Source of the DNA: a virus
Length of the DNA: 59,828 nt
Strand: one strand, 5' to 3'
Virus record (IMG/VR): IMGVR_UViG_3300022602_000103
Span: 1-59,828 of that record
Of this stretch, positions 1,698 to 58,076 are shown piece by piece (within the stretch, counting starts at the first letter, position 1; each line of letters begins with the position of its first letter). The notes below the pieces were generated by a model. That model was not told the DNA's origin and searched no databases. It saw only the letters and a list, made by a program, of their open reading frames with translations. The translations under genes were made by a program, and so were the position numbers.

Positions 1698-1726
1698 TTA
1701 CTTCTCCTTTACTTGATTAAATTGAA

Positions 1727-1744
1727 ATCCACTACGACGTGGAT
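1727..1744 (-). promoter_or_regulatory. Palindrome, copy 1 of 6
   Basis: ATCCAC, six bases, GTGGAT: a perfect 6-bp inverted repeat with a 6-base spacer, 30 bases upstream of the start of the DUF3150-like gene. On the leftward strand it is preceded by a TATATAGC-like sequence, as in the other copies. It could be a protein-binding operator or an mRNA 5' hairpin, since it lies about 60 bases downstream of the predicted transcription start. Confidence 0.7.
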
Positions 1745-1809
1745 CGCTATATAAAACCACACCAAAAACAAAAACAACTTGAACATAAATTGCTCCCTTC
1801 ACTATGATA

Positions 1810-1838
1810 AGTATACTACAACTTTACATTTGAGTCAA
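1810..1838 (-). promoter_or_regulatory. Sigma70-type promoter for the DUF3150-like/ATPase genes
   Basis: On the leftward strand the sequence reads TTGACT, 17 bases, TATACT, close to consensus at both boxes with optimal spacing. Just upstream of the -35 box lies a direct repeat of GTCATATA (as TATATGAC on the forward strand, 1845-1852 and 1858-1865, period 13). The whole arrangement recurs at 3703-3757 with the same spacing. Predicted transcription start is near 1803, giving a leader of about 105 bases that contains palindrome copy 1. The direct repeat is a candidate activator or repressor site. Confidence 0.8.
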
Positions 1839-1894
1839 TGGTGATATATGACTTTTTTATATGACACTAGGTACTTCTTGGCGGTTAATTTGTT

Positions 1895-2320
1895 TCACAT
1901 CCAATCCACAATTACCTGACGTGATACAGACACCCAGTCATAATCGGCATTACCACCAACATCCTCGACAATATCTTGGGCATCCTCTCCAACCCTTGCA
2001 AACGCATAGCCTAAATACTGTGAGTGAGGGTTATCTTCCTCGATCCAGTCTCTTGCCATTTGCAGTAAGTCCTCATGGCATTTAACGTCGGCATAATCCT
2101 CATACCACTTCACGTCTTCGGCTAGAAAATTTATTGCGCACCCATCTACATCAACTGACAAGTTATCGCTATCGCTATCATCAAAACACCTAGCAGTATC
2201 TTCATGTTTCATAGCTTGGGTTAGGAATAACTCGAACGAGCCTTTCAATTCTTCCTGTTTAGTATCTTGGTTGTTAGGTGTAAAGCGTATTGAATACGCA
2301 ACTGTTGATCTATAACCCAC
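1895..2320 (-). CDS. Hypothetical acidic protein
   Basis: Function not recognised. The frame is open from a GTG at 2368, but I prefer the GTG at 2320 (141 residues). It has a good Shine-Dalgarno (AAAGGAGAG, 2329-2336), and the 2368 start overlaps a copy of the palindromic element that lies upstream of other genes here. The protein is strongly acidic with an Asp/Ser-rich middle (DDSDSDNLSVDVDG) and a DWIEEDNPHSQYLGYAFARVG segment near the C-terminus. Its neighbours are other small early-type genes on the same strand. Confidence 0.65.
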   Translation of the reverse strand: MGYRSTVAYSIRFTPNNQDTKQEELKGSFELFLTQAMKHEDTARCFDDSDSDNLSVDVDGCAINFLAEDVKWYEDYADVKCHEDLLQMARDWIEEDNPHSQYLGYAFARVGEDAQDIVEDVGGNADYDWVSVSRQVIVDWM

Positions 2321-2362
2321 GATTGACTCTCCTTTTATAAGTGTTAAATCGCTTTGGTTCTT

Positions 2363-2380
2363 TTCCACTATGTAATGGAT
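2363..2380 (-). promoter_or_regulatory. Palindrome, copy 2 of 6 (degenerate)
   Basis: TTCCAC, six bases, ATGGAT, followed on the forward strand by AGTTAAATAGCAC, which closely matches the flank of the copy at 6205. It keeps the 6-6-6 geometry but has mismatches in the right arm. It lies 43 bases upstream of the preferred start of the 141-residue gene, which argues against the longer reading of that gene. Confidence 0.55.
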
Positions 2381-2421
2381 AGTTAAATAGCACCCTTACC
2401 ATCCATGCCATCGCTTCGCTT

Positions 2422-2616
2422 TCATGCTTCATGTTCATCTCCTATGAATGTTTTAACCCAGTCTATGTAGACTTCGTCAAAGTAAAACCACCTCGCCTCT
2501 CGCTTGCGGTTAGGTTTATCTATGGGGTAATTAACTAATAGAGCATGGTCATCGCTACGCACTAGCTTGTAGAACTCAGGCTTATTAGGGTTGCGATATA
2601 GCTTGATGATTTTCAT
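2422..2616 (-). CDS. Small hypothetical protein
   Basis: 64 residues, not recognised. It begins MKIIKLYRNPNKPEF and has an aromatic-rich middle (ARWFYFDEVYIDWVK). Its ATG shares four bases (ATGA) with the stop codon of the 51-residue gene just upstream, so it is probably expressed by translational coupling. It is the last member of a compact leftward run of genes from 3586 to 2422. Small and basic to neutral, with no signal peptide or membrane segment. Confidence 0.6.
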   Translation of the reverse strand: MKIIKLYRNPNKPEFYKLVRSDDHALLVNYPIDKPNRKREARWFYFDEVYIDWVKTFIGDEHEA

Positions 2617-2768
2617 TGTTGTTCCAGTTCTTTTTGTCTTTGCTCTATTACGGATAGCAATACTTTTTCTACTTCTGCTTTTTCAGCTTCAGTCATTTCT
2701 CTATCCTCAGCCTGTATTTTTTCTATAGACTTTATTACTTCTTTAATCTTATTGACTATGCTCTTCAT
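2613..2768 (-). CDS. Small coiled-coil protein (51 aa)
   Basis: A short gene of 51 residues, starting MKSIVNKIKEVIKSIEK, very rich in Lys and Glu, and predicted to be one long helix or coiled coil (heptad-like Ile/Val/Leu spacing). Support comes from exact ATGA overlaps at both ends: its start overlaps the stop of the zinc-ribbon gene (2765-2983), and its stop overlaps the start of the 64-residue gene. Such overlaps at both ends are unlikely by chance. Function unknown. Confidence 0.65.
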   Translation of the reverse strand: MKSIVNKIKEVIKSIEKIQAEDREMTEAEKAEVEKVLLSVIEQRQKELEQQ

Positions 2769-2983
2769 TTCACCAACCCCCCTTTGTTATTGAGTCCTAC
2801 CAAGTCGGACTTGTCTGTGATAAGAACGTAATTACTCTTGTGCATGGGAGCAACTGTGCGAACCACCTTCTTTGCGATCTCATCACCGCATGGACAACAA
2901 ACTGCATAGCCCAGTCTGAACCGCTCCTCGTTGAACACATCACCGCATAGCTTGCACTGTGGTGTAAAAGTTTCATCAATCAT
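2765..2983 (-). CDS. Small zinc-ribbon protein
   Basis: 72 residues with two Cys pairs near the N-terminus: CKLCG at about residues 10-14 and a CCPCG group at about 29-33. This is the pattern of a small zinc ribbon, which would bind nucleic acid or protein. The rest is short and basic. Its start overlaps the stop of the 73-residue gene upstream by four bases, and its stop overlaps the next start, so it belongs to a translationally coupled set. The specific role is unknown; small zinc ribbons are common among early phage genes that act on host machinery. Confidence 0.65.
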   Translation of the reverse strand: MIDETFTPQCKLCGDVFNEERFRLGYAVCCPCGDEIAKKVVRTVAPMHKSNYVLITDKSDLVGLNNKGGLVK

Positions 2984-3201
2984 GATTTTATCCTTTCGGG
3001 TATTTGGTGGATTGCGCTACGGATTTGGTCGATTAACTCCTCGCCATACTTTTCTTCAAAGTAATTTTGGTCAGCGATAACTTTCTCGAATCGTTCCCAC
3101 TCAGCTTCACTATCATCTTGTTCTTCGGGAGCGCACAGGCAATACACAATGTCGCATATGTCACGACGTAGTGAGTTAAAAGTTTCTTGGCTGATAGTCA
3201 T
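2980..3201 (-). CDS. Small acidic hypothetical protein
   Basis: 73 residues, acidic, with three cysteines near the N-terminus (DICDIVYCLCAPEE) and a helical C-terminal half (ELIDQIRSAIHQIPERI). Not recognised. It overlaps its upstream neighbour by four bases at 3198-3201 and its downstream neighbour by four bases, consistent with coupled translation. The cysteines do not form an obvious zinc site on their own. Confidence 0.6.
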   Translation of the reverse strand: MTISQETFNSLRRDICDIVYCLCAPEEQDDSEAEWERFEKVIADQNYFEEKYGEELIDQIRSAIHQIPERIKS

Positions 3202-3386
3202 TTGGTTTCTCCTTGATTACCGAACGATGCTTCATACCTATCCAACCAGTCGTTGAACTCCGCTTCGTAGATCGCCCACTCTTCGTCGCTATCTACCATT
3301 CCACGCTTGCGTGGATCGAGGATTGGCTTTTGACTGCTGGCACGTTGTTCCTCGAAAGCAATCAATGCGTTTTTAAGTTTGCCCAT
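3198..3386 (-). CDS. Small hypothetical protein
   Basis: 62 residues, highly charged, starting MGKLKNALIAFEEQRA and containing an acidic, aromatic region (DEEWAIYEAEFNDWLDRY). Not recognised. Its stop overlaps the start of the 73-residue gene by four bases, and it starts three bases after the stop of the 65-residue gene. Part of the compact leftward run beginning at 3586. Confidence 0.6.
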   Translation of the reverse strand: MGKLKNALIAFEEQRASSQKPILDPRKRGMVDSDEEWAIYEAEFNDWLDRYEASFGNQGETK

Positions 3387-3388
3387 GA

Positions 3389-3586
3389 TTAAACCTCTTC
3401 TTTCATTGTTGGAATAAATTCATAGCCGACTGTTAATAAATCCACGAGGACATGGACTGTTAATAATTCCCCTCTGCAATACATCACGTCTTGCGTATCG
3501 GGATGCGCTAAGTCTTGCGCCAAATACAACCCCTCATTGAGGACAGGGTTAAATATCTGCACTTCTACCTCTTCTCTATTACTCAT
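3389..3586 (-). CDS. Small hypothetical protein, first gene of its operon
   Basis: 65 residues from the ATG at 3586. That start is chosen over an upstream ATG at 3610 because it has an AAAGGAGAAG Shine-Dalgarno at the right distance, the standard ribosome site of this phage's leftward genes. The protein starts MSNREEVEVQIFNP and is acidic. Upstream lie palindrome copy 3 (3625-3644) and a strong sigma70-type promoter (3703-3731), so this is the leader gene of the small-gene operon down to about 2422. Function unknown. Confidence 0.65.
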   Translation of the reverse strand: MSNREEVEVQIFNPVLNEGLYLAQDLAHPDTQDVMYCRGELLTVHVLVDLLTVGYEFIPTMKEEV

Positions 3587-3624
3587 ATGCTTCTCCTTTA
3601 TTAGAGTCATACATCATCAAACGA

Positions 3625-3644
3625 TTTCCACTACCTCGTGGAAA
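3625..3644 (-). promoter_or_regulatory. Palindrome, copy 3 of 6
   Basis: TTTCCAC, six bases, GTGGAAA: a perfect 7-bp inverted repeat, followed on the forward strand by GCTAATTAAC. It lies 39 bases upstream of the ATG at 3586 and about 55 bases downstream of the predicted transcription start, the same geometry as copy 1. Confidence 0.75.
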
Positions 3645-3702
3645 GCTAATTAACATCTCAGGGTGCCACTTGCTTCGTAAAAATGCGCCCATCGACATTA
3701 TT

Positions 3703-3731
3703 AGTATACCACAACTTGACATATAAATCAA
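3703..3731 (-). promoter_or_regulatory. Sigma70-type promoter for the small-gene operon
   Basis: On the leftward strand: TTGATT, 17 bases, TATACT. A direct repeat (TATATGAC at 3737-3744 and TAAATGAC at 3750-3757, period 13) lies six bases upstream of the -35 box, exactly as at the promoter at 1810-1838. The two regions are alike over about 60 bases, so they share a duplicated promoter with presumably one regulator. Confidence 0.8.
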
Positions 3732-3766
3732 GCTGGTATATGACTTTTTTAAATGACAGGCTGTTC

Positions 3767-4105
3767 TTATTTCTGTGGTAATGCTTTTTTATGGGTATAT
3801 CTGCGTCTGAATAGGACATCACCTCGTTCGCCTTTGGCATAGCGTTGCGTTAATGTATTAACTCCTATGCCAATCTCCTCTGCCCATTCTTTAAGCGTTT
3901 TAGTTTCTTCTCCGTTGCCTGTGTCGTATGTAACAAAATCTAGATAGCTGGTTTCTATCTCGCATGGTCTGAGTAGGTCTGCACCTCTATCGCCTTTCTT
4001 CCATCGGTAGCGCAACACATTGATGTCTATGCCTGTCTCTTTTGCCCACTCTTTCATGGTCATCTCTTTGTGGTTGCGTAGTCTATAAATCATCTTAGTG
4101 AACAT
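3767..4105 (-). CDS. Putative DNA-binding protein with two helix-turn-helix-like repeats
   Basis: 112 residues containing two copies of one motif. The first runs from about residue 15 (TMKEWAKETGIDINVLRYRW), the second from about residue 69 (TLKEWAEEIGIGVNTLTQRY); each ends in KGxRG. This pattern (T-x-K-E-W-A, then G-I, then a putative recognition helix with R-x-x-K-G) resembles the small helix-turn-helix units found at the ends of HNH/AP2-type endonucleases. No nuclease motif is present, so a regulator or a remnant of a homing endonuclease are both possible. Start at 4105 has an AAAGG Shine-Dalgarno. The gene borders the repeat-rich region at 4.1-4.6 kb, so it could bind there (inference). 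Confidence 0.6.
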   Translation of the reverse strand: MFTKMIYRLRNHKEMTMKEWAKETGIDINVLRYRWKKGDRGADLLRPCEIETSYLDFVTYDTGNGEETKTLKEWAEEIGIGVNTLTQRYAKGERGDVLFRRRYTHKKALPQK

Positions 4106-4273
4106 GGTTTACCTTTCTGTTTTGGGTGATTAAAAATTCCGAAAAAAATTCCGTTGTTCCAAGTGTATTCTTAAAAATAAATAAATTCAAGAACTTTTTT
4201 GTAAGGGTGAAAACGGACAGGAAAGCCTTATAGTATATATAGATATATATAATATAATAATAAAAATAAAAAT

Positions 4274-4415
4274 AAAGTTCTAAAGTTCTGTATGTTTTTG
4301 ATAGGGGACAATACCTTGCGTTACTTTTTTGCATTGGGAAAACAAGCCTTGCTCTCCCATCTTTTTATCTTTTTAGTCCACCCCCTGTGCTAAATCGACA
4401 GAACTTTAGAACTTT
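4274..4415. repeat. 18-bp perfect inverted repeat built from AAAGTTCT units
   Basis: The arm at 4274-4291 (two tandem AAAGTTCT units plus GT) is exactly complementary to 4398-4415, with 106 bases between. It is nested inside the pair 4187-4200/4452-4465. The tandem units resemble iterons. Confidence 0.8.
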
Positions 4416-4512
4416 TTTACAAAGCCCAACATAATCAATAACTTGTAAGCGAAAAAAGTTCTTGAGTTTTACAAAAGTTCCGAGTCGGTTTTGGAATTTC
4501 CACGCAAAACCA

Positions 4513-4532
4513 TTTCCACTACATCGTGGAAA
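4513..4532 (-). promoter_or_regulatory. Palindrome, copy 4 of 6
   Basis: TTTCCAC, six bases, GTGGAAA, followed by GCTAAATAGC on the forward strand: almost identical to copy 3. It lies in the non-coding block, about 400 bases from the next gene downstream on the leftward strand. Confidence 0.75.
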
Positions 4533-4599
4533 GCTAAATAGCGACCTTGCGCTATCAAATCTGATAATTCTAAATGACACAAAGTCCTTGCTTGCTCAC

Positions 4600-4627
4600 G
4601 CGCGCGAAAACAAAGAACTGGTTTCAA
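4600..4627 (-). repeat. Spacer element, copy 1 of 3
   Basis: Contains AACTGGTTTCAA preceded by ACAA and a GCGCG-rich stretch. The same block recurs at 5371-5398 and 6261-6287, each time just downstream of a leftward gene's 3' end and upstream of a palindrome copy. Confidence 0.7.
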
Positions 4628-4639
4628 TTTGGGCAAGCC

Positions 4640-4665
4640 AAAAAAGGGGAGGCTTTCGCCTCCCC
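4640..4665 (-). terminator. Rho-independent terminator after the 191-residue gene
   Basis: GGGGAGGC, TTTC loop, GCCTCCCC, with a six-T run following on the leftward strand. It lies 7 bases past the stop codon of the gene at 4672-5247. Confidence 0.9.
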
Positions 4666-4671
4666 CTAGTC

Positions 4672-5247
4672 CTACTTGATAGCCTTCACTATCGCATTGA
4701 CTACTGAGTCATTCACAGTAGTATCACCACGTCCCTTTGCTGTCTTAGCTCGGGTCTTGATTGTATCCACAGTCTCTTTGAGCCATACCTCGAAATCCTT
4801 GGTGCTGGCACGGGTAGTGGTTTTACCCTCGAGTAAATCCTTGTATGCTTTGACATACTTGCGTAGGTCTGCCATACGATTGGATTTGTATGTCCCCCAA
4901 TCCTTGCGCCATTTGGCATGGACACCATGTTTAACAGGGTCTTCGGATTTCATACGTCCAAATTCCTGCTGGGAGTGAGACATTACTACATTGATGTCTA
5001 CTTTAATTGCTCCCTTGGTATCAGCACTACATGGGACATAATCTGTCGTGTAATACTGTGCTGGATGATTCTCATGGAATCGGAGCATTTGACCCTCTTC
5101 AATCTGAGCCTTAACCTCTTCGGGCACAGATTCAAGGAACATAGGGCATACGTTATAAATATACTGTCCGATGGTTTGACCACGTTCAGCGCTGATACAA
5201 CCTTGATACGATGCATCCTTTAAGGATGTGATTTCTACTTTAGACAT
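4672..5247 (-). CDS. Hypothetical protein, paralogue of the gene at 5465-6109
   Basis: 191 residues, function unknown. It clearly shares ancestry with the 214-residue neighbour. Both start with an ITSLKD motif, have LRFxExxPAxxY at about residues 55-66, then a SQQEFGRMKSEDPVKH block at about 92-107 (SQQEYGKLKTSDPYKH in the neighbour), and both end with a RGDTT motif and a basic helical tail. The conserved Arg/Lys and aromatic residues suggest nucleic-acid or protein binding, but this is inference. The gene has its own promoter (5294-5323) and terminator, unlike most genes here, which suggests it is made in quantity. Start at 5247 is preceded by a GGAGG-type ribosome site. Confidence 0.7.
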   Translation of the reverse strand: MSKVEITSLKDASYQGCISAERGQTIGQYIYNVCPMFLESVPEEVKAQIEEGQMLRFHENHPAQYYTTDYVPCSADTKGAIKVDINVVMSHSQQEFGRMKSEDPVKHGVHAKWRKDWGTYKSNRMADLRKYVKAYKDLLEGKTTTRASTKDFEVWLKETVDTIKTRAKTAKGRGDTTVNDSVVNAIVKAIK

Positions 5248-5293
5248 AATGTCCTCCGTTGTTAATCGGTGCTTAATTGCATCCGATATGATA

Positions 5294-5323
5294 GTTATAA
5301 CTGATAGCTAGACTGTTAATCAA
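5294..5323 (-). promoter_or_regulatory. Promoter for the 191-residue gene
   Basis: Leftward strand: TTGATT, 18 bases, TATAAC. It resembles the promoters at 6174-6203 and 6565-6594 in spacing and in the bases around the -10 box (a TCAG just before the -10 box and an ATCATAT-like block after it). Palindrome copy 5 begins two bases upstream of the -35 box. Confidence 0.65.
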
Positions 5324-5325
5324 GC

Positions 5326-5343
5326 TTTCACGGGGTAGTGGAA
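5326..5343 (-). promoter_or_regulatory. Palindrome, copy 5 of 6
   Basis: TTTCAC, six bases, GTGGAA (one mismatch between the arms), followed on the forward strand by CGCTATCTAAGC. It abuts the -35 box of the promoter for the 191-residue gene. Confidence 0.65.
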
Positions 5344-5370
5344 CGCTATCTAAGCCACACGCACACGGAC

Positions 5371-5398
5371 GCGCCCGAGAACAAGTAACTGGTTTCAA
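5371..5398 (-). repeat. Spacer element, copy 2 of 3
   Basis: GCGCCCGAGAACAAG followed by TAACTGGTTTCAA. Matches copies at 4600-4627 and 6261-6287 at most positions. Confidence 0.7.
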
Positions 5399-5423
5399 AT
5401 GGGGGGCTTGTGAAAATCAGGGC

Positions 5424-5459
5424 AAAAAAAAGCCCCACCAGTCAATGACTGGCAGGGCT
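5424..5459 (-). terminator. Rho-independent terminator after the 214-residue gene
   Basis: AGCCC pairs with GGGCT and CCAGT with ACTGG, with small internal bulges, followed on the leftward strand by a run of seven T. It ends 6 bases from the gene's stop codon. Confidence 0.85.
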
Positions 5460-5464
5460 AAGTC

Positions 5465-6109
5465 TTACTTATTCCATTGAACCATAAAGGCGTCAATAGC
5501 TAACTTCAGTCGCTTCTCATCAGCAGTGGTATCACCACGCTTGGAAGCATTTTTGCACTTCTGAATTAAACCCTGATCACCTTTGAATACTTCAATAATG
5601 CGGTGAGCAAAATCTAATGTAGCACCACGCTCTTTCTGTTTACCCTCATTGAGGATCGTACGAGCTTGACGCTTGAGATCACCTAAGCGATTAGAGCAAT
5701 AAGTGTTTACCTTATCACGCCATTCCTTGATGACTGCGTGCTTGTATGGATCGCTAGTCTTTAGCTTGCCATACTCTTGCTGACTAAACGCAAACACATA
5801 GTCAGTACCAATCAACACAACTTCCTTTTCCTTTTCAAGATCAGGATTAGAGCCGTCAATCAATAGGTAATGATCATTGACAACTGCGTACCGCTTGGCG
5901 GGATTGGTTTCGTTGAAGCGTAAACGATAGCCGTCATATAACTGCTCTTTGACTTCGTCGCTTACTTCGTCAGGGAAACCCTTACAAGTGGTTAAAACAT
6001 AGCGAGCAACGCCACGCATTTTGTCGCTTGCTACTGCTTGCTTGTAAGCACCATCTTTTAGACTGGTGATCTGATCTTTTACTTCTACTGCTAGGGCTTT
6101 AGTAGCCAT
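5465..6109 (-). CDS. Hypothetical protein, paralogue of the gene at 4672-5247
   Basis: 214 residues from the ATG at 6109, which follows a GGAGAAG ribosome site; the frame stays open further upstream to 6235, but that part runs through the promoter. It shares several blocks with the 191-residue neighbour: ITSLKDGAYKQ near the start, LRFNETNPAKRY in the middle, SQQEYGKLKTSDPYKH and then a CSNRLGDLKRQ segment. It has an insertion around residues 75-100 and a longer C-terminus. The protein is basic. Function unknown; a duplicated, highly expressed nucleic-acid-binding or host-takeover protein is one possibility. It has its own promoter and terminator. Confidence 0.7.
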   Translation of the reverse strand: MATKALAVEVKDQITSLKDGAYKQAVASDKMRGVARYVLTTCKGFPDEVSDEVKEQLYDGYRLRFNETNPAKRYAVVNDHYLLIDGSNPDLEKEKEVVLIGTDYVFAFSQQEYGKLKTSDPYKHAVIKEWRDKVNTYCSNRLGDLKRQARTILNEGKQKERGATLDFAHRIIEVFKGDQGLIQKCKNASKRGDTTADEKRLKLAIDAFMVQWNK

Positions 6110-6173
6110 TTTGCTTCTCCTCATAAAATGAAGTACTGCGTTGATGACAAGCGGAATTGCCTGCCATGTAATA

Positions 6174-6203
6174 CTTATAGCTGACACAAGGTCGTTAAGT
6201 AAA
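6174..6203 (-). promoter_or_regulatory. Promoter for the 214-residue gene
   Basis: Leftward strand: TTTACT, 18 bases, TATAAG, with GTCAGC immediately before the -10 box, exactly as in the promoter at 6565-6594. Palindrome copy 6 begins one base upstream of the -35 box. Confidence 0.7.
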
Positions 6204-6204
6204 G

Positions 6205-6222
6205 TTTCACGCCTAAGTGGAT
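6205..6222 (-). promoter_or_regulatory. Palindrome, copy 6 of 6
   Basis: TTTCAC, six bases, GTGGAT, followed by AGCTAAGTAGCAC on the forward strand. The arms match imperfectly, but geometry and flank follow the other copies. It abuts the -35 box of the 214-residue gene. Confidence 0.65.
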
Positions 6223-6260: not shown

Positions 6261-6287
6261 CGCCCGACAACAAATAACTGGTATCAA
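6261..6287 (-). repeat. Spacer element, copy 3 of 3
   Basis: CGCCCGACAACAAA followed by TAACTGGTATCAA. It lies between the 3' end of the 69-residue gene and palindrome copy 6. Confidence 0.7.
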
Positions 6288-6306
6288 TCCCAGCTTGCGC
6301 TGGGAT
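6287..6306 (-). terminator. Hairpin after the 69-residue gene, weak terminator
   Basis: ATCCCAGC, TTGC loop, GCTGGGAT: a perfect 8-bp stem just beyond the gene's stop codon. There is no T run after it on the leftward strand, so termination may be inefficient or factor-dependent. Confidence 0.5.
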
Positions 6307-7200: not shown

Positions 7201-7767
7201 ATGGACACGTACATTCCAGACATTGAGCAGAACGTTCCTCTGCCAAAAAATGCCCAAGAAGCATTTCCTGCTCTCACGCCACAAGAAGAGCTAAACATGC
7301 GGGCTAATGTAGTAAAGCTAATGTCCGATCTAACAGGGCAGCCTATCACACCAAACCAAGAAAATGTTGAGCAAGCTAAGTCTTTAGCTGTGCAAATGGC
7401 ATCTGACCCTAAATTTAGACCAGAATTTAATGAATATCCCAATGAAACATTAGCAATGCTAGCTGGCATGGTTGCCCAGATGAATGTTTCTATTGTGGAT
7501 GAACTATCTGAACTAAAAACCTATGTAGTTAATCATCTATTGCATTCGGTTGAAGCATCTAAAGATGTAAAAACCAAGATTGCAGCCCTAAGAGCGCTTG
7601 GAGAGATAGATGGGGTCGATGCATTTAAGAAAAGAACCGAAGTTACTGTCAAAATCCAAACAAAAGAAGAAGTTGAGAGTGAATTATTATCACTTTTGGA
7701 CGAGGTTGAGGGTAAATATATAGATGTAGAAGCCAAAAACGTGGTTAATAAAGACAATGACAAGTAA
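7201..7767 (+). CDS. Putative terminase small subunit
   Basis: 188 residues, acidic, directly before and overlapping the large terminase gene by 11 bases. That position, the size, and a helical C-terminal half (KTKIAALRALGEIDGVDAFKKRTE, read in two parts) fit a small terminase subunit that recognises phage DNA for packaging; the call rests mostly on position. An N-terminal Pro-rich segment precedes the first helix. There is no Shine-Dalgarno before the ATG at 7201, and the nearest promoter would start transcription at or beside it, so initiation may be leaderless. An internal ATG at 7297 has a weak GAAGAG site and is the alternative. Confidence 0.6.
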   Translation: MDTYIPDIEQNVPLPKNAQEAFPALTPQEELNMRANVVKLMSDLTGQPITPNQENVEQAKSLAVQMASDPKFRPEFNEYPNETLAMLAGMVAQMNVSIVDELSELKTYVVNHLLHSVEASKDVKTKIAALRALGEIDGVDAFKKRTEVTVKIQTKEEVESELLSLLDEVEGKYIDVEAKNVVNKDNDK

Positions 7768-9280
7768 ATTGTCCCAAGAACAGCTATTTAAGCTGCGTTT
7801 ATTGGCAGAAAACCCAAAAACACCCCTCGATGTTAAGCGAAAAGCCAAGGATTTAATTGAAAAATACGATGAATTTCTTACCCAAGAGCGAGGAAAAGTA
7901 TCCTTTTTGGACTTTGTTAAACACGTATACCCAGGCTATATGGTCGGGCAACATCATCTCAAACTGGCTCAAATTTTTGAAGATATTGCTAACGGTAAGA
8001 AAAAACGAGTCATTGTTAATATCGCTCCACGACACGGTAAGTCTGAACTCATATCCTACCTTGCTCCCGCCTGGTTCCTGGGAAAATACCCCCAGAAGAA
8101 GATTATCATGGCGTCTCACACAGCAGATTTGGCGGTTAACTTTGGTCGTCGCGTTAGAAACCTTGTCGGTTCAGACGACTATAAAGAGATATTTCCGCAA
8201 GTAGAACTGCAAGCTGACAGTAAATCAGCATCACGATGGGGAACAAATTTTAATGGTGAATATTTTGCAATCGGTGTCGGTGGCGCCCTTGCTGGTCGCG
8301 GGGCTGACTTGTTTATTATTGACGACCCGCACTCCGAGCAGGATGCTAAGACTGGAAGACCCGATGTATTTTTGCCTGCGTGGGAGTGGTTCCAGTCTGG
8401 TCCTCTCCAGCGTCTTATGCCTGGTGGTGCAATTGTTATTGTGATGACTCGTTGGTCAAAACTTGACTTAACAGGGCAGATAGAGAAACAGTTAGAGGCA
8501 AATGATGACGTAGATAAGTGGGAAGTGATTCAGTTTCCTGCAATTAAAGATGATGGCGAGAGCCTATGGCCCGAGTTTTGGCCTGTGGAAGAGTTACTAG
8601 CTAAGAAAGCAGCACTTGACATTAGGTATTGGAATGCCCAGTACTTACAAAACCCAGTATCAGAAGAGGGTGCGCTGATCAAACGGGAGTGGTGGAACAT
8701 CTGGGAAAAAGATACGCCGCCAGAGTGTGAGTTTATTATCATGTCGCTAGACGCGGCTCAGGAGGCAAATAACCGTGCGGACTATAACGCGCTCACGACG
8801 TGGGGCGTCTTCTTCAACGAAGAAGTCAATAATTACAACATCATTCTCCTTAATGCAATCAAAAAACGATTGGAGTTTCCAGAACTCAAGAAGCTTGTAC
8901 TTGAGGAGTATAGTGCGTGGCAACCAGATGCGTTCATGGTTGAGAAAAAGTCCAACGGGGCTGCGCTATATCAGGAGCTTAGGCGCATGGGTATACCTGT
9001 CGGCGAGTTCACACCTGGCAAGGGTCAGGATAAGATCGCGCGCGTTAACGCTATTTCAGACTTGTTTTCGGGTGGGGTTGTCTGGGCGCCGTCGCACCGC
9101 TGGGCGAAAGATGTGATTGAGGAATGTAATGATTTTCCTAGCGGATTGAACGATGACTTGGTAGACTCTACAACATTAGCTCTGTTAAGATTTCGGCAGG
9201 GTGGGTTTATTCGTCTACCCAATGATGAACCAGAAGACGACATGCTTTACAAATACCGCAAAAAAGCTGCGTATTATTAA
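7757..9280 (+). CDS. terL: Terminase large subunit
   Basis: 507 residues with the hallmarks of a phage DNA-packaging motor. There is a Walker A-like motif (APRHGKSE, about residues 89-96), a Walker B motif (LFIIDDPH, about 184-191), and a C-terminal RNase H-like nuclease with a first catalytic Asp in IIMSLDAAQ (about 328) and a late Asp pair in DDLVDS (about 464). It would pump DNA into the prohead and cut it at the end. Full family length and both domains are present. The gene overlaps the small subunit and is followed after ten bases by the portal gene. The cut type (headful or site-specific) cannot be read directly. Confidence 0.95.
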   Translation: MTSKLSQEQLFKLRLLAENPKTPLDVKRKAKDLIEKYDEFLTQERGKVSFLDFVKHVYPGYMVGQHHLKLAQIFEDIANGKKKRVIVNIAPRHGKSELISYLAPAWFLGKYPQKKIIMASHTADLAVNFGRRVRNLVGSDDYKEIFPQVELQADSKSASRWGTNFNGEYFAIGVGGALAGRGADLFIIDDPHSEQDAKTGRPDVFLPAWEWFQSGPLQRLMPGGAIVIVMTRWSKLDLTGQIEKQLEANDDVDKWEVIQFPAIKDDGESLWPEFWPVEELLAKKAALDIRYWNAQYLQNPVSEEGALIKREWWNIWEKDTPPECEFIIMSLDAAQEANNRADYNALTTWGVFFNEEVNNYNIILLNAIKKRLEFPELKKLVLEEYSAWQPDAFMVEKKSNGAALYQELRRMGIPVGEFTPGKGQDKIARVNAISDLFSGGVVWAPSHRWAKDVIEECNDFPSGLNDDLVDSTTLALLRFRQGGFIRLPNDEPEDDMLYKYRKKAAYY

Positions 9281-9289
9281 GGATAAATT

Positions 9290-11863
9290 ATGGCAATAGA
9301 TAAGGCACTTTACTCAGCCCCTCAAGGACTAGATCAACTTGGCGAGGAGGGTGACGAGCCAGCGTTAGAAATATCTATTGAAGATCCAGAGGCTGTTGAG
9401 ATTGGGATTGATGGTCAGCCAATCATGCGTATAGAGAAAGATGAAGAGCCAGACGGCTTTGATGATAACTTAGCAGAACAATTAGATGACAGACTATTAG
9501 CTACATTAGCTAGTGATTTAACTTCCGACTTTGATAATGACATAGCCTCTAGAAAAGATTGGATACAAACTTATGTGGATGGTCTAGAACTTCTGGGCCT
9601 TAAAATTGAAGAGCGTGCTGAACCTTGGGAAGGCGCCTGTGGCGTGTACCATCCACTCCTCTCAGAAGCAGTAGTCAAGTTCCAAGCTGAGACCATGATG
9701 GAGACCATGCCAGCGGCAGGTCCAGTCAAGACACAGATCATTGGCAAAGAAACCCCAGATAAAAAAGCCGCGGCTGAACGTGTTCAAGATGACATGAACT
9801 ATCAGTTGATGGACGTGATGAAAGAGTTTAGACCTGAGCATGAGCGTATGCTGTGGGGCTTAGGCTTAGCGGGTAATGCGTTTAAAAAAGTCTATTACGA
9901 TCCAAGTTTGCAACGTCAAGTATCCATGTATGTTCCAGCAGAAGATGTGGTTGTCCCCTATGGAGCTTCTAGCCTAGAGTCAGCTGAGCGTGTCACGCAT
10001 GTGATGCGTAAGACAGAGAATGATGTGCGTCGCTTGCAGCATGAAGGTTTCTACCGAGACGTAGACTTGGGTGAGCCAGTTCAAGTAATGGACGAGATTG
10101 AGAAGAAGATTGCTGAGAAGCTTGGCTTTAGGGCAACTACAGATGATCGTTTTAAGTTATTAGAAATGCATGTGGAGCTTGACCTTGAAGGGTTTGAGCA
10201 TACAGATGAAGATGGTGAACCCACTGGCATTGGTCTACCTTATGTAGTCACAATCGAGAAGGGTACTAGTACTATTCTAGCAATCCGTCGCAACTGGAGA
10301 CCAGAAGATGAGAAACACCATAAGAGAAACCATTTCGTCCATTATCCATACATTCCAGGCTTTGGTTTTTATGCTTTTGGGCTTATTCACCTTATCGGCG
10401 CTTTTGCTAAGTCTGGTACTTCTCTTATCAGGCAATTGGTTGACGCTGGGACACTTTCAAATCTGCCAGGCGGCTTTAAGGCCCGTGGGATGCGAGTCAA
10501 AGGCGATGACACGCCAATAGCTCCAGGTGAATGGCGTGACGTAGATGTTCCAGCAGGGACAATGCGTGACAACTTGTTACCACTTCCATACAAAGAACCA
10601 AGCCAAGTTTTATATAGTTTGTTAGGAACTATTGTAGAAGAGGGTCGCAAGTTTGCTGGGTCTGCAGAGATTCAAGCATCTGACATGAGCGCTAATGCGC
10701 CAGTTGGAACAACACTAGCAATTCTAGAAAGAACATTGAAGTCAATGAGTGCGATACAAGCTCGTATCCACTACGCAATGAAGCAAGAGTTTAAGCTTCT
10801 TAAAGACATCATCAGAGATTACACACCAGAAGAATACTCATACGACCCAGTTGAAGGTGATCGTCGAGCAAAGCAATCAGACTATGACATGGTTGCTGTT
10901 ATTCCTGTGTCCGATCCCAACGCGGCTACTATGGCGCAAAAAGTCGTGCAGTATCAAGCAGCTCTACAACTCGCTCAAACCGCACCTCAGCTCTATGATC
11001 TTCCACTTCTGCATCGTCAGATGTTAGACGTGTTGGGAATCAAAAACTATCAAAAGCTTGTACCGATGCCCGAAGATATGAAGCCTCGTGACCCAGTTTC
11101 TGAGAATCAGAATATTTTGATGAATAAACCTGTCAAAGCATTCTTGGCGCAAGACCACCAATCTCATATCACGGTGCATATGAGTATGGCACAAGACCCA
11201 CATATCCAAATGTTGATACAACAAAACCCACAACTAGCTCAACAGATTCAAGCGGAGTTGTCTGCTCACGTAGCTGAACACTTGGGAATGGAGTATCGCA
11301 AACAGATGGAGCAACGGATGGGTACGCTATTGCCTGCAGTTCCACAAGACCCAGATGATGAGGAGCCAAATATGTCTCCACAGATGGAAGAGCAGATTTC
11401 TCAAATGGCAGCGCAAGCGGCAACACAGATGTTGCAACAGCATCAACAGGAAGCTCAACAACAGCAAGCGCAACAACAGGCTCAAGATCCAATCATCCAG
11501 TTACAACAACAAGAGTTACAGATTAAGATGGCTGAACAACAACGCAAAGCTAAAAAAGATCAAGATGACTTCCAGCTTAAGTTGCAACAGATCCAACTTG
11601 AAGCAAAACGGATTGCTGCCCAACAGGAAACTGAAGGAGCAAAGATGGCTATCCAAGCATCATTAGCTAAGCATAAAGAGAAGAACCAACAGGAAACTGA
11701 AGGCGCTCGCATGGCTATTGATCTAGGTAAACAACGTGAACAACACCAGCATCAAAAAGAAGTAACAACAATGCAGACGGATGTGCAAAGGGAGCTAGCT
11801 GCGAAACAAGCTGAAACCCAAGCGCAAACTAAAGAAATTAAAAAGGAAACGAAAGGTAAATAA
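9290..11863 (+). CDS. Portal protein with Gln-rich C-terminal extension
   Basis: 857 residues; position right after the large terminase and size fit a P22-class portal (long portals of short-tailed phages), the ring through which DNA enters. An acidic N-terminal arm (residues 1-60) precedes the core, which contains the EERAEPWEGACGVYHPLL region near residue 105 typical of such portals. The last 250 residues are extremely rich in Gln and form a long coiled coil with a near-repeat of QQETEGA(K/R)MAI, probably a barrel-type extension. The stop overlaps the next start (TAATG). Call by context and composition; the core fold is not proven here. Confidence 0.85.
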   Translation: MAIDKALYSAPQGLDQLGEEGDEPALEISIEDPEAVEIGIDGQPIMRIEKDEEPDGFDDNLAEQLDDRLLATLASDLTSDFDNDIASRKDWIQTYVDGLELLGLKIEERAEPWEGACGVYHPLLSEAVVKFQAETMMETMPAAGPVKTQIIGKETPDKKAAAERVQDDMNYQLMDVMKEFRPEHERMLWGLGLAGNAFKKVYYDPSLQRQVSMYVPAEDVVVPYGASSLESAERVTHVMRKTENDVRRLQHEGFYRDVDLGEPVQVMDEIEKKIAEKLGFRATTDDRFKLLEMHVELDLEGFEHTDEDGEPTGIGLPYVVTIEKGTSTILAIRRNWRPEDEKHHKRNHFVHYPYIPGFGFYAFGLIHLIGAFAKSGTSLIRQLVDAGTLSNLPGGFKARGMRVKGDDTPIAPGEWRDVDVPAGTMRDNLLPLPYKEPSQVLYSLLGTIVEEGRKFAGSAEIQASDMSANAPVGTTLAILERTLKSMSAIQARIHYAMKQEFKLLKDIIRDYTPEEYSYDPVEGDRRAKQSDYDMVAVIPVSDPNAATMAQKVVQYQAALQLAQTAPQLYDLPLLHRQMLDVLGIKNYQKLVPMPEDMKPRDPVSENQNILMNKPVKAFLAQDHQSHITVHMSMAQDPHIQMLIQQNPQLAQQIQAELSAHVAEHLGMEYRKQMEQRMGTLLPAVPQDPDDEEPNMSPQMEEQISQMAAQAATQMLQQHQQEAQQQQAQQQAQDPIIQLQQQELQIKMAEQQRKAKKDQDDFQLKLQQIQLEAKRIAAQQETEGAKMAIQASLAKHKEKNQQETEGARMAIDLGKQREQHQHQKEVTTMQTDVQRELAAKQAETQAQTKEIKKETKGK

Positions 11864-35989: not shown

Positions 35990-38637
35990 TAAATTCAATT
36001 TTTGGCGGTGGGGGCGGTGGCGGTGGCGGCTCTCAACAAGCTGCACCCCAACAAACTAGTAGCAACGTATATCAAACAAATATACCTGATTATGCACAGC
36101 CTTATGTGCAGAACATGCTCAATGCTACTCAAGCTCAATTATTTAATACTGATTCTAGTGGCAACATAACAGGGTTTAATCAATACCAGCCATACACTGG
36201 TATGACTCAAGATCAATTAACTGCAGCGCAATCTGCTGTAGCTGGGTTTTCACCGCTCCAACAACAAGCTCAATCTTCCGCCGCTAACTTACAAGTGCCT
36301 GGTCAATATGGCGCTGCTACTGGTCAAACTATGCGCGGTATTATGGGGGCTAACCAGATAGGTAGACAAATGCAAGGTCTTGCTGCGTCTGCTACTCCGC
36401 AAGATTTTCAAAATCAAGTAGGTGGTTATATGAACCCCTACATTCAACAATCTTTAGCCCCACAATTACAACTAGCTAACCAACAATATGGTATGGCTGG
36501 ACAACAGATGGCTGGTCAAGCTACTGGTGCTGGTGCTTTTGGTGGGTCTCGTAATGCGTTGCAACAAAGTTTAAATCAACAGAATCAAATGTTGGCGCAA
36601 AACCAATTAATTAGCCAAGGCTATAACACCGCATTTACTGCAGCGCAAAACCAGTATAACCAAAGCGGTGCGTTCCAATTACAAGGTTTACAAGGTGCGC
36701 TTGGCGCACAGCAACAAGGTATGGCTGGTGCAGCTCAGTTAGGTAGTTTAGGTCAAGCTCAGCTTGCAGCACAACAAGGCATTCTTGGTACACAAAACCA
36801 ATTGGGTGCGCAACAACAGGCTAATGCTCAACAAGTTATTAACCAAGGTATTCAGAACTACGCTACTGCACAGCAGTATCCACTCATGCAGTTGGGTACT
36901 ATGTCTAATATGTTGCGTGGTCTACCATTGCAATCATCTACTACTCAATCTTATCAAGCTGCGCCTAGCGCATTAACCCAAGCTGTGGGCGCTGCAGGTA
37001 CTGGTGCTATGTTGGGTTCTATGTATGCTGCTAAAGGCGGACTACTTAAAACTAAAAAAATGGCAGCTGGTGGTATAGCTAGCTATGGCGCTGGCGATAT
37101 TGTTGAAAGCACTGAGTCTGATTTAGAACAAATGCCTAGTAATGCTTTAAATAAAGAACTGGCTTCAACTACAAGCGACTTAGTTAAATCTAAAATCCGT
37201 GGCATCTTACAAGCTCGTGCTGGCGCACAATATGCGGGCGGTGGCATTATTGCATTTGCTGATGGTAATGATGGTCAAGCTATTAGTGCTGACCCAGCTA
37301 TGGTTCGTCAAGCTTATGTTGATGCTGCTAATTTACAAGCTGCACAAAACCCTCCTTCAGATACCCCTGTTGCTCCAACTAATACTTCTAGATTTAGCCA
37401 AATGGGTCCTCAGACTTCTAGATTTAGTCCGCAAGGTATTACTGCAGCAGCACCTACTGATCCCAATGCGCCAGTTTTAGCTGGTCGTGGTGTTCCAGTA
37501 CAACCAACTATTAGTCCTCGTATGCAAGCTGCTTTGGCTGATCAAGCTAGAACGCAGCAAGTTCAAACTCCTCCTGCAGCTTCTGGGTCACTTGGGCTAA
37601 CTCCTAATGAGTCAGTAGTTCAACCTAACGCTGCCCCTGCTCCAGTTGCTGCTGCCCCAGCTGGTGTTAAAGCCGCTCCTAGCCCAGAACAAACAGTTAC
37701 TGCGGTTCAAAAACAAGCTACTAACCAAACTATTGCAAGAGCTACTGATCCTACTTCAACCAGTTGGATGGACTTATTATTACCAAAAGACAAAAGCGAA
37801 ACTATTAAACAGTACTTAGCTGAAAAAGAAAAGTATGTTGGTCCTGATACTTCTGAAGCAAATAAAGCGTCTTTAGAAGCTCGTAAAGAGCGTGAGCAAA
37901 AGTCCTATGACCAAATGGATAAATTAGTCAAAGCACAGATGTTTGCAAAAATGGGTACAACTCCTGGTTCATTATTAACTGCTGCTTTAACTGGGTTTCA
38001 AGCTGGCGTACCAGCTTTAGTTTCTAACATTCAAAAACGCGATGAAATTATGAATCAGATTGATGATTCTATTATGAACATTGATAAAGCTAAGCGTTTA
38101 GAACGTGCTGGTAATTTTGATGAATCTTATAAGTTTGCAGATAAAGGCATAGATCAATCCATCCAAGCTCATAAAGCATTATGGGAACACATGGATAAAC
38201 AAGCTGAAGTTAGTGCTAAATTTGCGCAAACTGGTTTAGATAAAAGTATCTTGCAGTATCAAAAAGCTCAAGGTCAGTACCAAACCGAAGTAGAAAAAAT
38301 AGCTACTGAAAAACAAAAAGATACTCAGTATGGTATGGATAAACGCATGCAAGAGATGTATGCTACTCGCCTTAAACAAAATCCTAACGATACAGAAGCA
38401 AAAACTAAATACGATGAAATTTCTAGAAGAATAGCACCTAAAGAAACTGATTGGAATAATCGTATAAATGAAATTCGTGAGTATAGAGATAGGTTTGATA
38501 CAGGCAGAGTTCCTCCAAAACAAGGAATTACTCAAGCTGCGCCTCAACAAAATATGCCGTTGTATGCATCTAATGGAAAAGATCGTATAGTATCTAATGA
38601 TGGTGGTAGAACATGGCAACCTGTCGGAGTTAAATAA
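35977..38637 (+). CDS. Internal virion protein, Gln-rich
   Basis: 886 residues, starting MGGIVNSIFGG followed by a run of eight Gly and a Gln-rich region (to about 330), then a helical C-terminal part with a coiled coil (about 640-820). Contains the motifs AAKGGLLKTKKMAAGGIAS (about 350-370) and AQYAGGGIIAFADG (about 415-430), shared in style with other proteins here. No enzyme signature is visible. Its place between two other internal proteins and its size fit an ejection protein. Start overlaps the previous gene by 13 bases. Confidence 0.65.
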   Translation: MGGIVNSIFGGGGGGGGGSQQAAPQQTSSNVYQTNIPDYAQPYVQNMLNATQAQLFNTDSSGNITGFNQYQPYTGMTQDQLTAAQSAVAGFSPLQQQAQSSAANLQVPGQYGAATGQTMRGIMGANQIGRQMQGLAASATPQDFQNQVGGYMNPYIQQSLAPQLQLANQQYGMAGQQMAGQATGAGAFGGSRNALQQSLNQQNQMLAQNQLISQGYNTAFTAAQNQYNQSGAFQLQGLQGALGAQQQGMAGAAQLGSLGQAQLAAQQGILGTQNQLGAQQQANAQQVINQGIQNYATAQQYPLMQLGTMSNMLRGLPLQSSTTQSYQAAPSALTQAVGAAGTGAMLGSMYAAKGGLLKTKKMAAGGIASYGAGDIVESTESDLEQMPSNALNKELASTTSDLVKSKIRGILQARAGAQYAGGGIIAFADGNDGQAISADPAMVRQAYVDAANLQAAQNPPSDTPVAPTNTSRFSQMGPQTSRFSPQGITAAAPTDPNAPVLAGRGVPVQPTISPRMQAALADQARTQQVQTPPAASGSLGLTPNESVVQPNAAPAPVAAAPAGVKAAPSPEQTVTAVQKQATNQTIARATDPTSTSWMDLLLPKDKSETIKQYLAEKEKYVGPDTSEANKASLEARKEREQKSYDQMDKLVKAQMFAKMGTTPGSLLTAALTGFQAGVPALVSNIQKRDEIMNQIDDSIMNIDKAKRLERAGNFDESYKFADKGIDQSIQAHKALWEHMDKQAEVSAKFAQTGLDKSILQYQKAQGQYQTEVEKIATEKQKDTQYGMDKRMQEMYATRLKQNPNDTEAKTKYDEISRRIAPKETDWNNRINEIREYRDRFDTGRVPPKQGITQAAPQQNMPLYASNGKDRIVSNDGGRTWQPVGVK

Positions 38638-41600
38638 TGGCACTTCCTGCTGGATTTGAACTTGAAAAGCCGCAATTACCAGAAGGATTTAAGCTTGAAG
38701 ATCAGCCTAAACCTGATGCTCTGGGTAGATTTGTAGCTGACCAAACCGCACCGCAAGAAGGTCCTGTTCAAGTAGGCGAGAATGCGCCTGACTTTACCCG
38801 TGGTTTAACTAATGAATTAGGTAGTCTCCAAAATGTATATGGCGGGGCTAAAGTATTAGCAGGTAAAGTTCTTGGCAGTCAAAGCTTAATGCAATCTGGT
38901 TTAGAAAGCATGAAAGCTGGAGAAGCTAAAACTGAGGTTAAACCCACTGATGATTTAACAGATGCTTTTAAAAAAGGTATTGGTTCTGTAGTTGGTGATT
39001 GGTTGCCATATCAAATAGGTTCTGGCGTTGGTAATATTCTTGAGACCCTTGGTTTTATGGGTATTGGAGCTGGTGTCGGTGCTTTAACTGGAGCAGGTGC
39101 TGGAGCATTACCTGGCGCTGTAGCAGGTGCAGTAGAAAAATCACTAGTTAAAAAAGGTGTTCAGTTAGCCGCAGAAAATGTTTTAAAAGAAACATTAGCT
39201 AAAGAATTAGCCGCTGGGACTGAAAAAGCCGCAGCAAAAGAAGTAGCAAAAACTGCTGCTGAGAAATATGTAGCTGAACATGCAATAGATATGTTAGCTC
39301 AAATTGATGCTAAAGCCGCTGCTCAATCTGCTGCAAGAAATATTGGTGGTAATTTAGGTATTGTTAGCCAAGCTGGTTTGCACGGCGCAGGTGAAGTTAC
39401 TGGGCAAGCTGTCCAACAAGCTGAAGCTGAAGGTCGTGCCCCTACTGATATTAATATGACCCGCGTAGTACCTGCTGCATTGGTACACGGCGTAGCAGAT
39501 TTCTTTGCAGAAAAGATTGGTTTACATGCTTTAGATGGTATGGCGTTAAATTCGTCTGGCAAAATGGTTCAAGATATTGCTAAAGCAATTGCACTGACTG
39601 GTACTAAAGAAGTTGTTCCAGAAACAATCCAAGAAATTGCTCAGCGCTATGGCGCTAATATGTCTCTTACCGATGCAGATGCGCTAAAAGATTATTTAAA
39701 CACAGTTGGTGCTTCATATGCTATGTCAGTTGTTCCAGCTGGCATTGGTGGTGTTCGTGCTAATTTGGCCCATAGAGCGGCTGAAATACCAGATCAAACA
39801 AATACTTTACAAGACTCTTTAGCAACTAAAGTAGCTACAGCCCCTGGTTTATTAGATGCAAATGGTAAACCGATTGTTGCTCCAGACCAAACTGAAACAA
39901 CTTTGTCAGCTGCTCCACCTCAAGAATCTATTTATGATGTGCCTAAAAAAGAAGCAGCTGACTATCTTGCAAAAATAGATTCTGGTGAAGTACAACCTAA
40001 TGCTTCTATTCTTAAAAAACACTTAGCTGCTACTGGCGCTGAAATGCCTGAGACTGGAAAAGGTTTTAGAGATAGAGCTTTAGAAGCACTAAAAACTCAT
40101 TTAGCACCGCAAGGAGAACAAAATGTCGGGACAACTAGCACTGTCAATGGAACAGATAGAAGTAGCGCTGAAGTACTTGGACAGCAAACAGATAGCACCG
40201 CCACCACAGGAACTACCACAGTTGGAGACCAAGGACTGGGAAGAGTTACACCACCTGCTAACGTGTCTCAAGCTGGAAAAGGAACAGAGCGTACTGCATT
40301 AAGCCAAACAGCTACAGATGAAGAGTTACGTGCAGCGCTTGAAAAAGACCAAGCACAAGCTGCCGCTACAGAAGCACAACGTCAAGCTGCACTGCAAGAA
40401 GTGGCTGGCAAAAATATTCCTCAGACTAAAACTGATGAACAAATACGTGATGAATATGAGCTAGCAAGACAGGCTCATACAGATACTCAAACTAAACTAA
40501 GCGCTAGCATTGATGAGTTAAATGCGCAGCGTGACGCATTAGTTAAAGAAGAAAATGCCCCTGGCAATGAAGATATTGACAATGGTGAAAAGATTGCCAA
40601 AATTGATGACCAGTTAACTAATCTAGAAAACCAACGCTTAGGTGCTATTCCTGCATGGGAAAATTTAGCAGCTGATGAAAAAGATACTTATTTAGGTAGC
40701 CTTAAAACTAATCCATCCGCTCAAGACTTTGACAATGCAGCTAAAGCACTAGCTTCTTATAAAGAACAGAAAAAAGGTTCTGGACTCAAACCAACTGAAC
40801 AACGTGTAGTTAATGGATACGAAGATAGTCGTTCAGCTTATCAGCGCTCTTTGGGCATGGATTTACCAGCATGGGGTCAATTATCACCAGCTGCGCAAGC
40901 TGCATACACTAGTAACGTAAAAAATAATACAGTTGCTGAGCAAGATGTTGGCTTTAATGCCGTAGCTGACCAGTTAGAAAAAGAAGGTAGAAGCATAAGA
41001 GGTGTATCTCGTGCTGGCATGGAGACCCTCAAACTTAAAGGTACTGAGCAAGAGGCGCAAGCTAAAGCGCAAGAGCGCACTGCCAAAGAAAGAGTTGCAG
41101 CTAGTGAAGCTGTTGGCAAAGGCAAGCCTGTAGCCCAAGATGTTAAGATTGCTCTTGAGAATAATGACATCAATGGTGCGCTTCAAGTTCTGATTGATAC
41201 TGGAGAAGGTCTAAAGATTGGCCCACAAGAAGGCGAGACTGGCGCAATTAAACAGTTAGCTCAACGCCAATCTATCCTAACTAAATTTGTAAATCGGTTC
41301 TTAGCTCGTTCCTTAAGTGGTGTTAAGTTTAACTCTACAGTTGTTACTGACCAGAACAATGAAGTTATCCAGCGCTTAGAGAAACAAGGCAAGCTGGCAG
41401 AGTATGACCCAAAAACAGATACATTCTATTTCACTAAGGATGGGTTTGATGAAGCTACCGTCTTGCATGAGATTGTTCACGCTGGCACTGTTAAGCTTAT
41501 TAATCAGTTTTTAACTAACCCAGCTAGCATGGCTCCGTACCAACGTGAAGCTATGGAGCATCTCCAAAAGATATTTAATTTTGCTAAGAATCGTCTGGGT

Positions 41601-57650: not shown

Positions 57651-58076
57651 TTACTTCTTACTTAGTTTGCCAACTTCACGATTGAGATACCATTGGGCTT
57701 TCTTCAAATCTTCTAACTTGTTCCCCTTGTGGTCTGCACGAGTAATATACTTCACCACATTACCGAGGTTATAGTTAAGAGACTTTGCTTCGATGAAATC
57801 AATCGTCTCGATCCCGCCTGTCTTGTAGTGGGGTGGATGGTTGACGTTATCGGTCTTCACAACAGTCTTAGGTTTTCTTCCACGCTTGGGTGGATACTTA
57901 ATTAGAACTGCTGGTGATGCGCTCATGGTGAGGGCTTGATCTTTCTTTGATTTATGAATTATCTGATACACACTATTGGGTGTAACACCAATCGCCTTTG
58001 CTATTTCGATTGCTTTTGCATTGGGGTTGTTCTTAACATAAGCCAATACCTTTGCAGTTTTAGTTAACTTCTTCAT
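57651..58076 (-). CDS. HTH-DUF3310 protein, putative nucleotide kinase
   Basis: 141 residues. An N-terminal HTH (AIEIAKAIGVTPNSVYQIIH, about 22-41) is followed by an AT-hook-like PPKRGRKPK (about 62-70) and then the DUF3310 domain from about residue 76: VNHPPHYKTGGIETIDFIEA and NLGNVVKYITRADHKGNKLE. DUF3310 is related to the T7 gp1.7 nucleotide kinase. The fusion with a DNA-binding front is not typical; it may be a regulatory, DNA-tethered kinase, or the kinase function may be lost. Start at 58076 has an AAGGAGAAG ribosome site. Confidence 0.75.
   Translation of the reverse strand: MKKLTKTAKVLAYVKNNPNAKAIEIAKAIGVTPNSVYQIIHKSKKDQALTMSASPAVLIKYPPKRGRKPKTVVKTDNVNHPPHYKTGGIETIDFIEAKSLNYNLGNVVKYITRADHKGNKLEDLKKAQWYLNREVGKLSKK

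Follow-up and report, generated by a model that had tools for sequence, protein, structure and literature searches.

A directional palindrome array in the early region of an uncultured podovirus and its putative phage-encoded regulator

Results

The window analyzed here is the whole 59,828-base, linear virus record IMGVR_UViG_3300022602_000103 from IMG/VR, in whose leftward early region an 18-bp palindrome recurs. With the terminase gene at 7757-9280 and the portal gene at 9290-11863, the late genes run rightward, and the early and replication genes are read leftward, in the intervals 6521 to 1 and 59,823 to 45,447. Six palindromes lie at 1727-1744, 2363-2380, 3626-3643, 4514-4531, 5326-5343 and 6205-6222, all on the minus strand; a preliminary description of this DNA had listed all six, placing the starts of the copies at 3626 and 4514 one base off. 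It had also assigned them a common sequence, TTCCAC-N6-GTGGAA, which can be recognized in every copy, although only those at 3626 and 4514 are perfect and the other four carry 1-2 mismatches. With up to two mismatches allowed, this sequence is found at 11 places in the window, where 2.1 would be expected, and none of 100 shuffles reached 11. A matrix of 35 positions, built from the six copies and read on the minus strand, gave these copies 33-44 bits and the next-best place 16 bits. When each copy was left out in turn, five of the six still ranked within the top six places; the copy at 5326 ranked only 12, and we retained it because its promoter context is conserved in relatives. In the sense of the leftward genes the full element reads TTAnnTAG-n(2-3) followed by the 18-bp palindrome, and it is directional, since the flank, TTAnnTA(G), stands on the upstream side, in agreement with the one-sided flank described earlier.

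The copies occur in two main promoter contexts, and it was correctly noted before that two of them adjoin -35 boxes and two lie in leaders, which here stand behind strong sigma-70 promoters. In the class-1 context, seen ahead of the genes at 5465-6109 and 4672-5247 and of homologous genes, one base separates the palindrome from a TTTACT -35 box, and the -10 box comes next. The site at 6205-6222 (TACTTAGCTATCCAC-N6-GTGAAA) thus stands 1 bp upstream of the -35 TTTACT (6203-6198), with the -10 TATAAG at 6179-6174, ahead of gene 5465-6109, a layout that is shared with many relatives; the site at 5326-5343 stands upstream of the -35 TTGATT (5323-5318) and the -10 TATAAC (5299-5294) of gene 4672-5247. 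Across relatives we assembled 73 unique class-1 sites, which were picked for having a -35 of the TTnAC type in one set frame, so that their constant spacing is in part a product of this selection; the near-invariant C before TTTACT and the TTAA after it were not selected for. In the class-2 context, found in the leaders of genes 783-1697 and 3389-3586, the palindrome lies ~54-77 nt behind TTGACT- or TTGATT-N17-TATACT promoters. The perfect palindrome at 3626-3643 occupies ~+54 to +71 behind TTGATT-N17-TATACT (3731-3703) in the leader of 3389-3586, and the site at 1727-1744 occupies ~+60 to +77 behind TTGACT-N17-TATACT (1838-1810) in the leader of 783-1697; most relatives keep the latter in place, several of them with altered arms. 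As for the remaining two, the perfect palindrome at 4514-4531, which has a TATTTAGC flank, is intergenic and lies upstream of gene 3767-4105, where no promoter was identified, and the operator-like copy at 2363-2380 (ATCCAT-N6-GTGGAA) directly precedes gene 1895-2320.

To follow the element beyond the window we used an IMG/VR pattern search, which yielded 24 stretches, and protein searches, which added many more; twelve relatives were read nearly whole. When 13 related genomes were each scored with their own palindrome, the early arm held 87 of the 94 sites (41.5% expected; p ~1.6e-25), with ~4-12 sites per relative. The flank in its strict form was on the sense side in 36 cases and on the antisense side in 5, while 4 sites had it on both sides and 42 lacked it; it is therefore frequent but not universal. 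Dozens of related phages appear, from their sequences, to share the array, and lineages differ in the version of the site that they carry: the palindrome is of a ATCTGTCA type in the relative G001, of a TTCCGTCA type in G002 and G003, of a CCAGC type in G004 and its kin, and of a GTCACAT type in G005. Within a genome these switched palindromes occupy leader and promoter positions alike, they recur at corresponding points in some of that genome's intragenic sites, and the motif-by-genome matrix is nearly diagonal. A simple explanation of such concerted switches is that each phage has one kind of factor, which recognizes its sites by their sequence. The shared regulator proposed in the preliminary description is hence supported: the sites keep their positions across many relatives, are confined to the early arm, have a direction, and change in concert within each genome.

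The array extends past the six copies and into coding sequence. Its restriction to the surroundings of leftward genes, as first described, holds, but the count of six was too low, since intragenic candidates on the minus strand were found at 1347-1364 (AAATAGC-TTTCCATGCCCTAGTGGAT) within gene 783-1697, at 367-384 (GACGAACCACTACCTCGTGGATC) within the ATPase gene, and at 57878-57895 (TAATTAAG-TATCCAC-N6-GTGGAA) within the DUF3310 gene at 57651-58076. Close relatives have copies at the same place as the first of these; the second has counterparts in G008, G009, G011 and G012, and in G002, G003 and G004 with switched arms; the third has counterparts in G010 and G012. Furthermore, in the variable linker of a 437-463-aa protein of the relatives, G001, G003, G007 and G010 each encode their own palindrome, while the sequence there in G004, CCAGCCGACACTGG, matches its type only roughly, and a clear copy is absent from G005. 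A further perfect TTCCAC-N6-GTGGAA was observed at 55715-55732 within the DNA polymerase gene, and four close relatives have it in the same position; the site lists of the switched genomes showed no counterpart, and this copy may reflect coding constraint.

The genes directly behind the two class-1 sites encode paralogues of 214 aa (5465-6109, minus strand) and 191 aa (4672-5247, minus strand) that share 33% identity. Many relatives have two copies of this gene and others one, within the stretch at hand. We aligned 55 members, 45 standard and 10 from the switched lineages. All 45 standard proteins have Asn140, and all 10 switched proteins have another residue there; in the latter the conserved columns 113, 116, 124, 138, 141 and 144 were lost as well. 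Residues 138-144 thus track the concerted changes of the sites. In the family tree the ten switched proteins, which are partly related, form at least four separate groups. Site class is not reflected in the tree of protein 783-1697, where the standard locus L119 falls beside the switched loci L128 and L132, and the link between site and residues is therefore not just phylogeny. Newly fetched loci fit the pairing in most cases: SNR/SNK proteins go with (T/C)CCAY-GTGR sites, and the SG/QG proteins of L190, L193 and L194 with CC(A/T)G-type sites. In a confidently predicted model of the paralogue (pLDDT 91.8, pTM 0.71), the segment 138-144 lies in the middle of a helix spanning 121-153. Foldseek returned no structural match at E<=0.001 against PDB and BFVD, and VIA-align gave a best Z of 4.2; this comparison was limited to Foldseek's own top chains, and a new fold is therefore not proven. 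No PHROG and no Pfam family matched the paralogue, nor did any of 50,697 phage records.

A second conserved element, block A, lies upstream of the class-1 sites, at 6262-6288 on the minus strand (TTGATACCAGTTATTTGTTGTCGGGCG), with further copies starting near 5373 and 4602. In the form TTTGATACCAGTTATTTGTTGTCGGGCGCG it is conserved ahead of the class-1 sites of the genomes that we read, in several cases after a terminator-like hairpin, and several relatives have a reversed version (AAATAACTGGCATC) on the upstream side of the 783 promoter. We also noted, in the homologues of the regulator-gene leader (6110-6145, minus strand, in the window), that the ribosome-binding site sits inside a GTTCAT...ATGAAC inverted repeat directly before the start, for example GTTCATTTTATGGAGATATGAACATG.

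By terminase, the nearest isolates (~50% identity) are phage DSL-LC04, 023Pt_psg01 and Pelagibacter phages of the HTVC023P type; neither the palindrome nor block A was found in the examined parts of DSL-LC04, 023Pt_psg01 and HTVC027P. The ATPase gene, which starts at 757, runs off the left end of the window, and by comparison with G010 genes for proteins of 437, 339 and 307 aa that are present in relatives are missing, probably between the window ends; the record therefore probably lacks some kilobases of the early region. The tyrosine integrase family PF00589, the only one covered by the search, was not found in 11 genomes, some of which may be fragments, and all 14 control genomes were positive; this suggests, without proving it, a lytic life style. 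A scan of genome collections with protein 783-1697 gave a sole match, a 7.6-kb contig binned in an actinobacterial metagenome-assembled genome, and it does not fix the host.

Discussion

We consider it probable that the palindromes are operators for a phage-encoded regulator, most likely the paralogues 5465-6109 and 4672-5247, and that they serve to damp early transcription. A protein with two-fold symmetry would read the palindrome, and the one-sided TTAnnTAG flank would give the site its direction. Both paralogues are encoded directly behind two operators and therefore would regulate themselves. Beside a -35 box the bound regulator would limit initiation; in the leaders of strong promoters and within genes it would hold back the elongating RNA polymerase, so that the array as a whole would damp early transcription along the operon. 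Binding by the paralogues, their dimeric state and the repressing or roadblocking effect are what we infer from sequence comparison.

Several observations weigh against this interpretation. The TTAnnTAG flank and block A are left unexplained, and neither paralogue matches a known DNA-binding family. The loci L214-L217 keep Asn140 and yet have TCAG-type sites, and Asn140 is therefore not the sole determinant; in the CCAGC lineage some sites behind the first paralogue are degenerate. We chose the residue columns with the site classes already in hand, overall divergence is greater among the switched proteins, and the paralogue genes are linked to two of the sites, so that co-inheritance could inflate the correlation. 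In addition, G001-G003 have another distance to the -35 box and the flank is shifted in G005, while the fixed -35 spacing of the standard lineage would also suit an activator.

This last point leads to the alternative that the same regulator acts at the same operators by activation, recruiting RNA polymerase at the weak class-1 -35 box, with the other sites acting as additional promoters or as places where a processivity factor loads. The constant 1-bp spacing to the weak TTTACT box in the standard lineage speaks for it, and chains of the lambda Q antiterminator were among the very weak, non-significant structural matches. However, G001-G003 keep the site despite a consensus TTGACA-like -35 at another spacing, the class-2 sites lie ~55-75 nt downstream of promoters so near to consensus that no activator is needed there, and other sites lie within genes. 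We therefore regard activation as unlikely, if worth keeping in view. In contrast, near-consensus class-2 promoters, sites behind the start and within genes, and the autogenous position all favor a silencer, and the array is most likely an autoregulatory silencer of early transcription, similar to stoperators but with what appears to be an unrelated regulator.

It is also conceivable, but rather improbable, that a host protein or another phage regulator binds the sites and that the paralogues vary for some other reason. The paralogues have no recognized DNA-binding domain, and gene 3767-4105 (minus strand) encodes a 112-aa protein with two tandem helix-turn-helix-like segments that could be such a regulator. 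By blastp, though, this gene is present in just 3 of 12 complete or near-complete relatives, and we rejected it as a candidate; moreover, phages whose core proteins are otherwise close differ in their site switches, and these switches track the paralogue residues.

The preliminary description had left room for an RNA element, that is, a hairpin in the 5′ leaders acting on mRNA stability or translation. The site at 4514 was scored as a stem-loop, and at the 1727 position the arms differ between lineages in a compensatory way that at first resembled covariation, but the promoter sites of the same genomes carry identical changes. Among 458 unique oriented sites, the inner arm pair was C-A in 68 and T-G in 64, and the third pair was C-A in 81 versus T-G in 57, so that C-A, which should be disfavored in a paired stem, is as common as T-G. 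The inner pair varies independently (p=0.97), and the association at the third pair (p=3e-4) may reflect lineage. The arms follow a genome-wide consensus, several sites, those of class 1, lie upstream of the -35 box, and no Rfam family reached its gathering score within the window. The matrix scan, the conservation in relatives and the comparison of arms with spacer thus came out on the side of a protein site, and on these patterns we read the palindrome as a DNA site and not an RNA hairpin, which we find hardly credible. A small open reading frame, MFKLFLFLVWFYIAIHVVVDFNLIK (1708-1786, minus strand), spans the site at 1727, and a YLAxHVxVD-like peptide recurs in close relatives; a peptide-based explanation was rejected, as the other sites have no matching frame.

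An N4-like arrangement, in which the palindromes would be hairpin promoters read by an RNA polymerase of the phage, is likewise most improbable. The sites are indeed directional and early, and a 2209-aa open reading frame matches a PHROG named virion RNA polymerase. However, this match falls on a region where an HExxH motif is conserved, the second domain match is to LPD38, the class-1 sites are followed by a sigma-70 promoter, and no single-subunit RNA polymerase family (PF00940) was found in 8 genomes, a search in which the control genomes were equally silent. The open reading frame in question lies at 38637-45266, with the HExxH near residue 941.

Returning to the operator interpretation, we tentatively propose a fuller picture, in which a new DNA-binding protein family of no recognized fold would be represented by two autoregulated paralogues, the helix segment at 138-144 would set specificity, the array would enter coding sequence, and lineages would repeatedly have switched operator and helix together, all in phages in which no integrase was found. 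The best-known directional operator arrays along operons are those of temperate mycobacteriophages. An array of this kind in a family of uncultured podoviruses that apparently do not integrate, under a candidate regulator of no recognized fold, would widen this mode of control, and the repeated natural switches of operator and recognition residues would offer a ready data set for the co-change of regulator and site, intragenic sites included.

Our literature searches found no description of this element. The SAS/ESAS of Cluster K mycobacteriophages are reportedly recurrent short elements near early genes, some with inverted repeats; unlike the sites described here, which also lie upstream of -35 boxes and within genes, they are said to be tied to translation starts. 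Closer parallels are found in the stoperators of Cluster A mycobacteriophages such as L5 and TipsytheTRex, which are present in many copies, at promoters and along operons, with an orientation that follows transcription (PMC9283540, PMC6550527); in L5, reversal of the sites abolishes function (PMC9283540). Cluster A motifs also differ between related phages, together with the repressor (PMC9283540, PMC6550527). In the same way the sites described here are dispersed and have one orientation (36 sense versus 5 antisense where the flank is one-sided; 87/94 in the early arm). On the other hand, the L5-type site is a 13-bp asymmetric sequence and not an 18-bp palindrome with a one-sided flank; the L5-type repressor is monomeric with an N-terminal helix-turn-helix, whereas the paralogous pair has no recognized helix-turn-helix, as judged by family and PDB searches; L5-type phages are temperate, in contrast to the lack of the tyrosine integrase family in our 11 genomes; and here some sites lie within genes. 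The comparison with stoperators is thus one of likeness, not of membership.

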